From assembly GCA_005889135.1 (NCBI GenBank), contig VBEK01000126.1:1-38777 (forward strand): a DNA stretch of 38,777 bases. The letters are read 5' to 3'. This stretch comes from Chloroflexota bacterium (GTDB lineage: Bacteria > Chloroflexota > Dormibacteria > Dormibacterales > Dormibacteraceae). A model generated the notes under the pieces. The model was given only the letters and a program-made list of their open reading frames with translations, was not told the origin of the DNA and did no database searches. The position numbers and the translations under genes are program-made. Below, in pieces: positions 31,971 to 36,050 of the stretch; the stretch's first letter is position 1, and each line of letters opens with the position of its first letter.

Positions 31971-32767
31971 GCGCTACGGAAGCCGGGCAGTTCCTCACTG
32001 TCGCGGCGAAGTCGCTGGGACCGGCGCAGTGGGAGTGGATCGCGACGGCGCGCATAGTCTCGCGTCAACGCGGCTCGACCGGCGCGGTAGAGGATGTGCT
32101 CGACGACCTCCTCTCCGGCGCCGACCAGGCGATGGTGAACGCCTTCACGAGCGGGTTCCGGGTGACACAGGTGCAGACCGCGATCAGCAAGTCGCTGCCC
32201 GACGCGGCCGCGACCGCCGCCGCTCTCGAATCAGCGCAGGTCGTGGCCCTCGGCATCCTCGTCCGCGAGCAGATGACGCCAGAGCAGTTCGACGCCGTCT
32301 ACAGGCCGTTTGCGACCGTCCTGCCCGGGCCGACCTACAGGCCCGCCGCGTCGATCGACCGCCAGATCGCCGCTTTCCTGCGCCTCCTGCCGACGCTCAA
32401 GGGTGAGGTCGAGGCGGAGGTCGCGGCGGTGGCGAAGACGCTGAGCCAGCCGCCGAAGGTGGCCGCACCGACCGCCGCCGGAGCCGTGCCTGGGTTCGCG
32501 GCGCCGGCGGGCTTGAACCCGGCGGCCAACTACACCGCCGCGTGGAAGCAGGCCATCTCGACCGCCAACCAGATCGGGCGCACGCAGGCGTTTCGGGCCA
32601 TGCAGGACAGCGCCGAGCAGGCGGCGCCGCACGACGGGCTGGGAATCGTCGGCTTCGCGGGGGTGGCCGCGGGGGCGATCTTCATGCGCGACGCGCTGCC
32701 GATCGAGAAGGTGCTCGTGCTCTATGAGCCGTTCGCCTCGGCCTTCCCGTACGAGTCGCTGGGTTAG
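31967..32767 (+). CDS. Protein of unknown function coupled to glpX, likely CTG start
   Basis: About 266 residues if it begins at CTG 31967, which overlaps the glpX stop as CTGA. No ATG, GTG or TTG occurs in frame near this point, yet protein-like sequence starts here ([31 protein letters not shown]). The N-terminal 130 residues are helical with conserved-looking [28 protein letters not shown]; an Ala/Pro-rich linker (about 158-182) and a final segment with a weakly hydrophobic stretch ([22 protein letters not shown]) follow. I do not recognise a family. The frame extends upstream to 31403 only as a shadow over glpX. Confidence 0.6.
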
Positions 32768-34404
32768 GCGGTTCTGACCCCGGCCGCCTTCTCGAGGCCC
32801 AGCTCCTCGACCGCGGTCTCGCGCATCTTGAACTTCTGGATCTTGCCCGTAACGGTCATGGGAAATCCGGAGACGAACTTCCAGTGGCGGGGGATCTTGA
32901 AGGTCGCGATCTTGCCCTTGCACCACGCGGCCAGGTCCTCGCCCGTGGCGCTCGCGCCCTCGCGGAGCTTGACCCAGGCCATCACCTCCTCGCCGTACTT
33001 CTCCGAGGGGACGCCGATGACCTGGACGTCGGCGATGTCGGGGTGCGTGTACAGGAACTCCTCGACCTCGCGCGGGTAGATGTTCTCGCCGCCTCGGATG
33101 ATCATGTCCTTGATCCGGCCGACGATGTTGAGGTAGCCGTCGTCGTCCATGGTCGCCAGGTCGCCGGTGTGCATCCAGCGGCCCGCGTCGATCGCCTCGC
33201 GGGTCGCCTCCTCGTTGTTCCAGTAGCCCCGCATGACGATGTAGCCGCGGCTGCACAGCTCGCCCGGCGTCCCACGCGACACGACCATGCCGGTGGCCGG
33301 GTCGACGATCTTGATCTCGACGTGCGGGTGGACCCGGCCGACGGTGGACACCCTCCGCTCGAGCGGGTCGTCGGTCGTGCATTGGGTGGAGACGGGCGAG
33401 GTCTCTGTCATGCCGTAGGCAATCGTCATCTCGGGGATGTGCATCACGGTCTGCACCTTTTTCATCACCTCGACCGGGCACGGCGAGCCGGCCATGATGC
33501 CGGTGCGCAGCGAGCTGAAGTCGAAGTCCTTGAAGCGTGGGTGCTCGAGCTCGCCGATGAACATCGTCGGCACGCCGTAGAGGGAGGTGCAGCGCTCCTG
33601 CTGCACGGTCTGCATCGTCGCCACCGGGTCGTAGGCCTCGGCCGGAATCACCATCGTCGCGCCGTGCGTCGTGCACGCGAGGTTGCCCAGCACCATGCCG
33701 AAGCAGTGGTAGAAGGGCACAGGGATGCAGACGCGGTCCCGCTCCGAGTACTTCAGCGTCTCGCCGATGAAGAAGCCGTTGTTGAGGATGTTGTGGTGAG
33801 TGAGCGTGGCCCCCTTCGGGAAGCCCGTCGTGCCCGAGGTGTACTGGATGTTGATCGGGTCGTCGAACTGGAGCGTGGACTCGAGCTCCTCCAGCTCGTC
33901 TGCCTTGACCTTCGACGAGTCGCGCTTGAGGGCATCCCACCCGTCCTCCAGCACCAGCGCCTCGCGCAGGGCGGGGCACCTGCCCTTGACCTCGGCGAGC
34001 ATGGCGCGGTAGTCGGCCTGGCGAAAACCGGCGGCCAGGATCAGGAAGCTGGTGCCGGACTGGTTGAGCGCGTACTCGAGCTCGCTCGTCCGGTACGCCG
34101 GGTTGATGTTGACCAGGATCGCGCCCATCGCCGCGGTCGCGTACTGCACGATCACCCACTCGTAGCGATTGGGGGCCCAGATGCCGACGCGGTCGCCTTT
34201 CTTGACACCGCGCGCCATCAAGCCGCGAGCGACCTCCTCGCACTGCGCGATGAGCTCGCGGTAGGTCGCGCGGTAGCCCTGATGCGCGACGACGAGCGCT
34301 TCGCGGTCGCCGTGCCGCGAAGCGGTGCGGCGCAGGTTGGCGAAGATGGGCTCGCCGAGAAGCGGTTGCTCGCTAGCCCCGTGGACATAGCTCAGCTCAG
34401 CCAT
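32764..34404 (-). CDS. Fatty acyl-CoA synthetase, ACSF2/FadD-like
   Basis: Activates a fatty or aromatic acid to its acyl-CoA through an acyl-adenylate. 546 residues from ATG 34404. Motifs of the ANL superfamily: phosphate loop [19 protein letters not shown], the aromatic [11 protein letters not shown] (substrate and adenine), [55 protein letters not shown] (A8 hinge and core) and the catalytic lysine [13 protein letters not shown]. Closest in style to medium-chain ACSF2-type enzymes. It converges with the unknown gene at 31967 (4-nt stop overlap). The 371-nt region upstream holds the palindromic repeats. Confidence 0.93.
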
Positions 34405-34650
34405 CGTTCACACCTCGACTGGATAGGCCGGCCAATGAAGAACCCTCTTGACATTGTCCTCGGATCGTCGCAGGCTGGAGGGAGTTCGTTCTCCGTCGGG
34501 GACCATCGACAGTTCACGCAAAGGTTGGCCTCCACAAGTAGGCAACGGCCGTAAAGCGGCGCAGAAACCAAAAGCGTGTCACCCGGTGGCCTCCGGGTCG
34601 AGGCGGTGTCCGCTGCAGGCGCCGCCTCGTTTTGTGTCCAGGCGAGTCCC
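34405..34650. other. Upstream region of the acyl-CoA synthetase gene
   Basis: About 246 nt without a gene. It should contain the promoter of the minus-strand synthetase, but no clear -35/-10 pair is visible on that strand. A lone TTGACA on the plus strand near 34448 has no matching -10. Confidence 0.35.
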
Positions 34651-34758
34651 CGGATAGTCGCGACTATCCGCGGCACTCGAGGCCCGAACCCCCTCGTTAG
34701 TCGCGACTATCCGAGGTGTTGGCGCCCGAAATCCCTTGTTAGTCGCGACTATCAGGGG
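34651..34758. repeat. Three tandem palindromic repeats, 42-43 bp pitch, with covarying arms
   Basis: The 12-bp palindrome TAGTCGCGACTA occurs at 34655-34666, 34698-34709 and 34740-34751. Each copy lies in a larger hairpin with its own outer arms: copy 1 is a perfect 20-bp palindrome (34651-34670); copy 2 pairs CCTCG with CGAGG (34692-34696, 34712-34716); copy 3 pairs CCCTTG with CAGGGG (34733-34738, 34753-34758, one G-T pair). GCCCGAA also recurs at 42 bp distance (34682, 34724). Arms differ in sequence but keep pairing. Candidates: operator array, REP-like element or RNA hairpins at the 3' end of the MFS transcript. Confidence 0.8.
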
Positions 34759-34775: not shown

Positions 34776-36050
34776 TCAGCGGACGGTCTTGATGCGGCTC
34801 ACGAAGACGGTGCCGAGGAAGAGAAACACGACCGCGGTCGAAAAGACGATGCGATAGCCCCCGTTACCGTGCGGGCCGTTTAGCGCGTCGATCAGCGGGC
34901 CGCCGAAGAACGGGATGATCGCCTGCGGCAGCGTGAGGGCGATGTGGAAGAGGCCCATATCCTTGGCCGACGCCTTGGGGTCGGGCAGCGTGTCGCAGGC
35001 CAGCGCCCAGTCGACGGCGAAGTAGAGCCCGTAGCCCACACCGTAGGCCACGCCCAGCCCGAACACGAGCGCGGTCGCGGTCGGGTAGAAGGCGATGAAG
35101 ATGATGGCGACCAGGGCCTGCGCCGCGCCGGCGGTGTAGACGAAGACCTTCCGCCGCCTCAAGCGGTCGGACAGCAGGCCGCCGAAGAAACCGAACGGGA
35201 TCGCGGTCGCGACGACCACCAGTAGCCAGTTGGAGGTGAAAGCCTCAGCCCCCTTGCTCGTCCCGAGCACCACGTCGCGGAAGAAGTTGAGAAGGAAGTA
35301 GAGGACCGCGGTGATGCCGGAGGAGACCATCAGGCGCGTGAAGATGACCCAGGCGAAATCGCCCGTGTGGAGCGGCCGGAGGAACTCGCGCACGGCTTCT
35401 CCGAGCGGCCGCTTCGGTCGGGGCGGGATCGGAGTCTCGCCTTCGCCGCGCGCTGCCCACACCGTCGGCAAGAGGCTGAGCAGGGCCACGGCCCCGAGGA
35501 TCAGGTAGATCACGGGGTGGCGGCCGATCAGCGAGGTGACGCCGAGCCCCGCGCCGATGCCGAGCTGAGTCATGGTGGCGAGGAACCCGCTCGCTTTGCC
35601 GGTCTCCTGGGCGGGAACTACGTCGGGGATGATGCCGGCGTAGGCCGCGCCGGCCGCGTTGAAGAAGAACTGGATGATCGCGTAGCCGACGAGCACCAGG
35701 GGGTAGGTGCCGGCGAACATGAGGATGACCAGGCCGGGGAACGTGAGCAGGGTTCCCGCCACCATGATGGGTCGCCGCCGGCCGAAGCGGCTGTGGATGC
35801 GGTCCGACCAGGCGCCCACCAGCGGCGGCACCGTCATCGCCAGAAACCCGCCCACGCCCAGGGCGACGCCGATGCCGGTGTTCTGCAGGTCCTTCTGGGG
35901 GACGACTTCGTCGACCTGGGACTGGAGGAGGACGGTGGTGAGCGGGATCCACAGGAAGTTGCTGCCGAACCAGAAGGCGCTGAGCGCGGCGTGCCTGAGG
36001 TTGCTGAACCCTGTCGCGGTGCTGGTCGGGATGGCGGCGGCCGTGGCCAC
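34776..36050 (-). CDS. MFS transporter, SLC45/GPH-like
   Basis: 424 residues from GTG 36050 with twelve predicted helices. WSDRIHSRFGRRRPIMVAGTLL after helix 2 is the motif A equivalent (D-R-x-x-x-R-x-G-R-R-R-P) of the GPH/SLC45 sugar-transporter branch. GGLLSDRLRRRKVFVYTA is its repeat in the second half, and DWALACDTLPDPKASAKDMGLFHIA is typical of that branch. A glycoside or disaccharide substrate by proton symport is a reasonable guess, not shown by context. It is divergent from the DUF1232 gene with 69 nt between, and its 3' end lies about 20 nt from the palindromic repeats. Confidence 0.88.
   Translation of the reverse strand: MATAAAIPTSTATGFSNLRHAALSAFWFGSNFLWIPLTTVLLQSQVDEVVPQKDLQNTGIGVALGVGGFLAMTVPPLVGAWSDRIHSRFGRRRPIMVAGTLLTFPGLVILMFAGTYPLVLVGYAIIQFFFNAAGAAYAGIIPDVVPAQETGKASGFLATMTQLGIGAGLGVTSLIGRHPVIYLILGAVALLSLLPTVWAARGEGETPIPPRPKRPLGEAVREFLRPLHTGDFAWVIFTRLMVSSGITAVLYFLLNFFRDVVLGTSKGAEAFTSNWLLVVVATAIPFGFFGGLLSDRLRRRKVFVYTAGAAQALVAIIFIAFYPTATALVFGLGVAYGVGYGLYFAVDWALACDTLPDPKASAKDMGLFHIALTLPQAIIPFFGGPLIDALNGPHGNGGYRIVFSTAVVFLFLGTVFVSRIKTVR

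Follow-up and report, generated by a model that had tools for sequence, protein, structure and literature searches.

What is a 12-bp palindrome doing when it stands three times in a row between two genes of a Chloroflexota bacterium from soil? In the window, by which we mean the whole stretch of 38,777 nucleotides analyzed here, three exact copies of the core TAGTCGCGACTA follow each other at distances of 43 and 42 bp, and the arms around them differ between the copies yet pair in each, in the second unit with a small internal loop and in the third with one G-T pair (Table 1). The cores and their differing, paired arms had been pointed out in a sequence-only reading and are confirmed, as is the position of the array between the 3' end of an MFS gene and an acyl-CoA synthetase-like gene, where the open reading frames agree and both genes lie on the minus strand. 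Any 12-bp palindrome occurring three times within 120 bp was found in one of 100 dinucleotide shuffles of the whole window. The same reading regarded the paired change of the arms as a sign of selection on hairpins and proposed that the array belongs to a new REP-like family or serves as a multi-site operator.

Table 1. Units and spacers of the array and the genes on both sides of it.
Feature	Position (strand)	Description	Basis
Unit 1	34651..34670 (+)	perfect 20-bp dyad CGGA-TAGTCGCGACTA-TCCG, core 34655-34666; outer, A-core-T type	sequence
Spacer 1	34667..34697 (+)	31 bp, giving the 43-bp period	
Unit 2	34692..34716 (+)	core 34698-34709; arms CCTCG (34692-34696) and CGAGG (34712-34716); T-core-T type	
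Spacer 2	34710..34739 (+)	30 bp, giving the 42-bp period	
Unit 3	34733..34758 (+)	core 34740-34751; arms CCCTTG (34733-34738) and CAGGGG (34753-34758); T-core-T type	
MFS-type transporter gene	34776..36050 (-)	stop codon 34776-34778; 3' end 17 bp from the last arm	ORF; name read from the sequence, no family search
Acyl-CoA synthetase-like gene	32764..34404 (-)	start 34404, 246 bp from the array	ORF; name read from the sequence, no family search

Two observations concern the surroundings of the array. Ahead of the acyl-CoA synthetase-like gene, the spacer (window 34410-34640) is strongly conserved genus-wide, contains a AACGAGGCGG...CCGCCTCG hairpin as well as GGACAATGTCAAGAGGG and has no Rfam match; it is a candidate leader RNA. 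Homologues of the MFS gene were found in 17 of 17 genus genomes, and in the genomes G006, G001, G004, G010 and G005 extra, apparently coding, sequence directly follows this gene. The window has the array alone between 34404 and 34776, and a gene was apparently lost at this place in its genome.

A dispersed family built from dyad pairs

A search of the window's genome (G000; 2.95 Mb in 221 contigs) with TAGTCGCGACTA returned 242 exact copies, arranged in arrays with a period of 42 bp, and none for the reversed control. Across 17 genomes of the genus, which like all genomes compared are incomplete assemblies, TAGTCNNGACTA matched 589 times and a reversed control pattern 22 times; 25 genomes from other genera of the family together gave three TAGTCNNGACTA matches. 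The centre dinucleotide of the 589 cores is CG in 292 cases, GC in 288 and something else in nine. Among dispersed copies the GC centre is dominant only in G000 (242 of 259) and G009 (34 of 47), and three genus genomes have zero or one exact core. No viral contigs with two phased cores were found, and the 12-mer TAGTCGCGACTA was not found in papers of the open-access literature. A Bacteroidales contig (CAMYYB010000035.1) carries a 22-bp tandem repeat that contains TAGTCGCGACTA with other flanks; we rejected it as a family member, its period and arms being unlike. The genome G004 is without TAGTCNNGACTA and has AGAGACATAGTCGC four times in 282 kb (L151-L170), which is possibly a diverged core variant.

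Throughout the genus the element consists of at least two dyads of about 20 bp, CGGA-TAGTC(CG or GC)GACTA-TCCG, placed 42 bp apart, and unit 1 of the window has the form of the first dyad of most pairs. This spacing was observed in 230 of 248 intervals (149/163 in G000 and 81/85 in relatives); the spacers carry little information, yet their length is kept. Exactly two dyads make up 64 of the 74 elements of relatives, and three or four the remaining 10. The G000 elements are the 66 that were fetched out of a larger total, with two, three, four, five, six and seven units in 11, 27, 18, 7, 2 and 1 of them, respectively. Locating an element required one or more exact cores of the CG or GC type, so that fully decayed elements are missed. 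Two single exact cores lacking both CGGA/TCCG arms and a partner (L212 in G014 and L223 in G039) were omitted as chance occurrences, and L217 (G006), with a non-palindromic core only, was dropped. In the resulting set of 140 elements there is no lone unit when decayed in-phase partners (9 or more matches out of 12) are counted.

Gene neighbours were taken from a crude ORF caller. None of the 66 G000 arrays lies inside a called gene. Where both neighbours were called (n = 62), convergent gaps contain 24 arrays, tandem gaps 32 and divergent gaps 6; the respective numbers for 116 array-free gaps are 14, 75 and 27, which amounts to an enrichment in convergent (Fisher's test, p = 8e-5) and a depletion in divergent gaps (p = 0.027). 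The elements are mostly found at gene 3' ends, and at eight of these ends the stop codon is a TAG supplied by the core (distance -7). Dispersed, extragenic, palindromic, multi-unit and mostly placed at gene 3' ends, the repeats are what the proposal of a new REP-like family had foreseen. In relatives without a dyad element at the respective site, other palindromes (CCCCATTCATGGGG, CCCTCTCCCC..GGGGAGAGGG, ATGAGAGGGAACC..GGTTCCCTCTCAT) fill the same gene-end gaps (L073, L076, L298, L305 and others).

Some elements are shared letter for letter or nearly so, namely between G007 and G008 and between G001 and G010. In 12 distinct pairs from shared slots the cores are alike at 18-20 of 20 non-centre positions, and in eight of these pairs the spacers are alike at 4-11 of 22 positions, the background mean being 9.1; core type, orientation and unit number may all differ within a shared slot. 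Directional slot comparisons (n = 74) yielded 52 shared and 22 empty slots, a split that leans towards shared because mostly element loci were sampled. Furthermore, spacers alike at 17-21 of 22 positions recur at different loci of single genomes, which suggests copying.

Conserved cores with spacers near background, a kept 42-bp phase and the excess of convergent gaps (24/62 versus 14/116) could also be explained by a site for a host protein at gene 3' ends, for example an insulator, a transcription block or a site involved in supercoiling or nucleoid structure, from which the nuclease gene described below would have borrowed copies as operator and terminator. We consider this unlikely, since the module that carries the pairs is found at five locations, three genus genomes have at most one exact core and near-identical spacers stand at different loci of one genome.

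Hairpin or duplex site

Compared to dinucleotide shuffles, the three window units fold more stably (z = -3.54, -2.43 and -2.14), as any palindrome would. For the 206 distinct units of the 66 G000 arrays, arm pairing including G-T amounts to 0.533, the same value as expected from column composition (0.533), and at offsets from -3 to +3 it is never more than 0.03 above expectation. For G000, mutual information was also calculated over 15 x 15 positions around the core as well as around the spacer and revealed no excess fitting pairing; spacer-centred columns are above shuffles, as expected of related units. In decayed cores, none of 71 substitutions (27 in G000 and 44 in relatives) is mirrored on the other side. 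In 580 of 589 cores the two centre bases, which do not pair in a hairpin, have kept their symmetry. A comparison across relatives gave a mixed picture of the covariation that the sequence-only reading had expected there: arm positions 3-4 change symmetrically in two-unit elements (n = 2 units) pooled over species (z up to 6.1), mostly, though not solely, because G006 uses GCGA/TCGC, and the signal is weaker without G006; in G000 there is none.

As the arms do not covary in G000 and core substitutions are not mirrored, the earlier argument for selection on hairpins is not supported. Together with the symmetric centre, these results point to the dyad as a duplex site that would be read by a protein with two-fold symmetry. 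RNA hairpins that terminate transcription in both directions or stabilize 3' ends would agree with the location at gene 3' ends, with the folding of the window units and with the other palindromes found at these gaps in relatives that do not have the element. Nevertheless, we regard such a role as very unlikely given the arms, the 71 unmirrored substitutions and the symmetric centre, and a terminator scan of the window spacer found a terminator-like site there and none at the array. A structured RNA with a covarying stem or membership in a known RNA family is not indicated either, with no covariation in G000 and no Rfam matches in the window.

The gene between the dyad pairs

Six intervals from six genomes, each about 1 kb long and bounded by two elements, all contain the same gene. 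The translated intervals were chosen by eye, and three others (L242, L047 and L088) are without the nuclease. The encoded protein of about 300 residues combines an AbiEi-like N-terminal part with a C-terminal DUF559 domain. PADLOC models of AbiEi matched three of three sequences (E 1.2e-15 for G000, 4.1e-16 and 4.8e-14), Pfam AbiEi_1 was above cut-off in two of six and DUF559 (PF04480) in six of six; NCBIfam has no family for the nuclease and PHROGs returned only weak unknowns. In a predicted model (pLDDT 85.1) the N-terminal part has its best Foldseek matches in AbiEi of S. agalactiae (6y8q, E 4.6e-5) and Rv2827c (1zel, 8.6e-5), and the DUF559 part matches solved nucleases weakly, with E values from 0.35 upwards. 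The residues D241, E252 and D254 are invariant in 16 of 16 aligned sequences and may be catalytic. PMC12907096 places a DUF559 protein among the PD-(D/E)XK Vsr-like endonucleases, and according to PMC7319586 the inverted repeats bound by AbiEi and Rv2827c are next to the genes that encode these proteins. The proposal of a multi-site operator is partly supported: the dyads are conserved and kept in phase, which resembles sites for a protein, and the gene lying between copies of them encodes a probable binder.

Mirrored dyad pairs stand on both sides of the AbiEi-DUF559 gene in 11 of 11 complete copies (G000, G009, G010, G014, G016, G012, G007, G011, G005, G006 and a frameshifted copy in G001), and all three incomplete copies of the clade (G003, G002 and C14 of G011) have a pair on the visible side. 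None of 34 other family loci examined, among them L048, has such a pair; these are part of the family matches, and some are cut by contig ends and display one side only. The ten flanked genes in the alignment group together in a single clade, apart from the six other sequences (support 100/99). A decayed fragment in G006 (C59), about 50% identical and of ambiguous placement, has one degenerate pair, so the rule that only the clade is flanked may not be absolute. Several AbiEi-DUF559 paralogues of G000 (C45, C73, C107, C108, C123, C156 and C189) are without adjoining dyads.

It might be assumed that AbiEi-DUF559 belongs to a defence or restriction-like system that acts on foreign DNA, with the dispersed dyads titrating, marking or regulating the protein. 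The similarity to defence-library models, the nuclease domain and the many unflanked paralogues in genus and family are compatible with this assumption, but such a system requires neither pairs exclusively around one clade nor copies multiplying in gene ends, and we judge it to be quite improbable.

Many module ends consist of an intact outer dyad and the inner dyad TCGTCCGGACTA. Several dispersed elements of G001 have the same form, and dispersed pairs therefore look like solo module ends. The array in the window is probably an expanded module end with three units. Judged by the flanking proteins, the module is located at A in G000 and G009, at B in G001, G010, G012, G014, G016, G007 and G002, at C in G005 and G006 and at D in G011 and G003. 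G011 has one more copy, at the end of a contig, whose flank matches none of the sites A-D and which adds a fifth location. With five chromosomal locations, the module has apparently moved. Location A, next to a gene which we take to be rsfS, contains the module in two of 11 resolved genomes and a short spacer in nine (G001 and G007 were left out), and the neighbours there are genes other than an AbiEii toxin partner. Spacers of left and right module ends are alike at just 3-13 of 22 positions, and neither a target duplication nor an exact junction was definable from the module and element loci compared.

In module A the cores are of the GC type at either end, and the other nine modules have CG cores or decayed forms of these. 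Dominance of the GC core is restricted to G000 and G009, the two genomes in which the nuclease belongs to the subclade of location A, although the MFS protein of G000 is as close to that of G006 (90%) as to that of G009 (87%). Nuclease type and core type go together, but as a single event. The presence of the module does not set the copy number: G008 (95% complete) has 68 CG or GC cores and G013 (63% complete) also has cores, with no clade member found in either, and G012 has the module and one exact core.

A possible route of spread and known systems

We think it rather probable that the dispersed repeat represents the ends of a mobile, nuclease-encoding module, and that it is bound and probably spread by this nuclease and not by a RAYT. 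The dyads are associated with the gene; binding, cutting and mobilization by its protein we infer. The AbiEi-like domain would bind the dyads, and two of them on one face of the DNA, four helical turns (42 bp) apart, would give a joint complex; by analogy with AbiEi, the upstream dyads may also autoregulate the nuclease gene. The nuclease would then nick or break the DNA at or near the bound ends, and repair may place a copy of an end, or at times of the complete module, in gaps next to stop codons. Copies lie mostly at gene 3' ends, which might reflect selection against gene damage. In the lineage of G000 the nuclease diverged, the centre changed from CG to GC and the copies multiplied and grew to 2-7 units, steps that may be causally connected. 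More tentatively, and possible rather than probable in our view, the paired-dyad ends are copied around the genome by the AbiEi-type DNA-binding nuclease (DUF559) that they flank, instead of by a transposase, with the centre dinucleotide and the enzyme changing together. If true, REPINs would have been reinvented with a restriction-like nuclease as a class of mobile DNA.

No description of a dyad-flanked AbiEi-DUF559 system was found in the open-access literature. In PMC3733652, REPs of the CGTC type are said to lack a dedicated transposase, which raises the question of what spreads palindromic repeats without a RAYT. In the genus studied here, such repeats are physically linked to a different family of enzymes at five places on the chromosome, and where the two centre bases of the repeat have naturally changed, the nuclease lineage is a divergent one. 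The flanking dyads suggest an unrecognized route for the spread of small palindromic repeats, and AbiEi-DUF559 fusions, which are without function in the family libraries searched, gain a concrete candidate role.

REPIN-RAYT systems are described in excerpts of PMC3116915 and PMC2817692 as dispersed extragenic palindromic doublets with species-specific sequence, tandem clusters and rare or decayed lone units, the cognate gene lying between two inverted copies. Extragenic palindromic units in high copy (242 in G000, with 0 of 66 arrays in genes) and the doublet as basic unit are also found here, as is a gene flanked by inverted copies (11/11). The enzyme, however, is AbiEi-DUF559 and not a Y1 HUH protein, each unit is itself a near-perfect dyad, the phase is fixed at 42 bp and none of the 140 elements is a lone unit. 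That RAYTs move these elements as classical REPs or REPINs is hardly conceivable, even though extragenic doublets at 3' ends and the repeat's TAG as stop codon at eight gene ends recall them. Y1_Tnp (PF01797) was detected in none of the 17 genus genomes, with a control search positive in 5 of 14, and the gene actually flanked encodes a different kind of enzyme; the dyad family is therefore not a member of a RAYT system.

GTAG REPs have the same gene-end habits, including TAG as stop codon, and CGTC-tagged REPs share the gene-end location and the reported lack of a dedicated transposase, as far as a section of PMC3733652 describes them. By eye, GTAG and CGTC are absent from the outer-dyad consensus, which appears to have no CGTC foot, and the inner dyads of the module hold TCGTCC inside the palindrome. 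The protein resembles AbiEi in N-terminal fold and family match, and differs in its fusion to a DUF559 nuclease. Operators of AbiEi, as portrayed in part of PMC7319586, are likewise inverted repeats in pairs beside the own gene, where binding in our case would be analogous; they measure 23 bp with gaps of 3-13 bp, and the dyads described here lie left and right of the gene and also at dozens of loci elsewhere. BIMEs are also regularly spaced extragenic palindromes, to follow an extract of PMC2817692. The flanked protein agrees with DUF559 and Vsr-like nucleases in its domain match and conserved acidic residues. BIMEs and the dyad pairs differ in sequence, phase and associated gene. MIRU repeats of mycobacteria are, as here, tandem intergenic units touching stop codons, with longer units, and we know of no dyad or nuclease associated with them. 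CRISPR arrays are unlike the cores of 12-16 bp with part-conserved spacers seen here. The dyad family is a REP/REPIN-like repeat family with a different enzyme.
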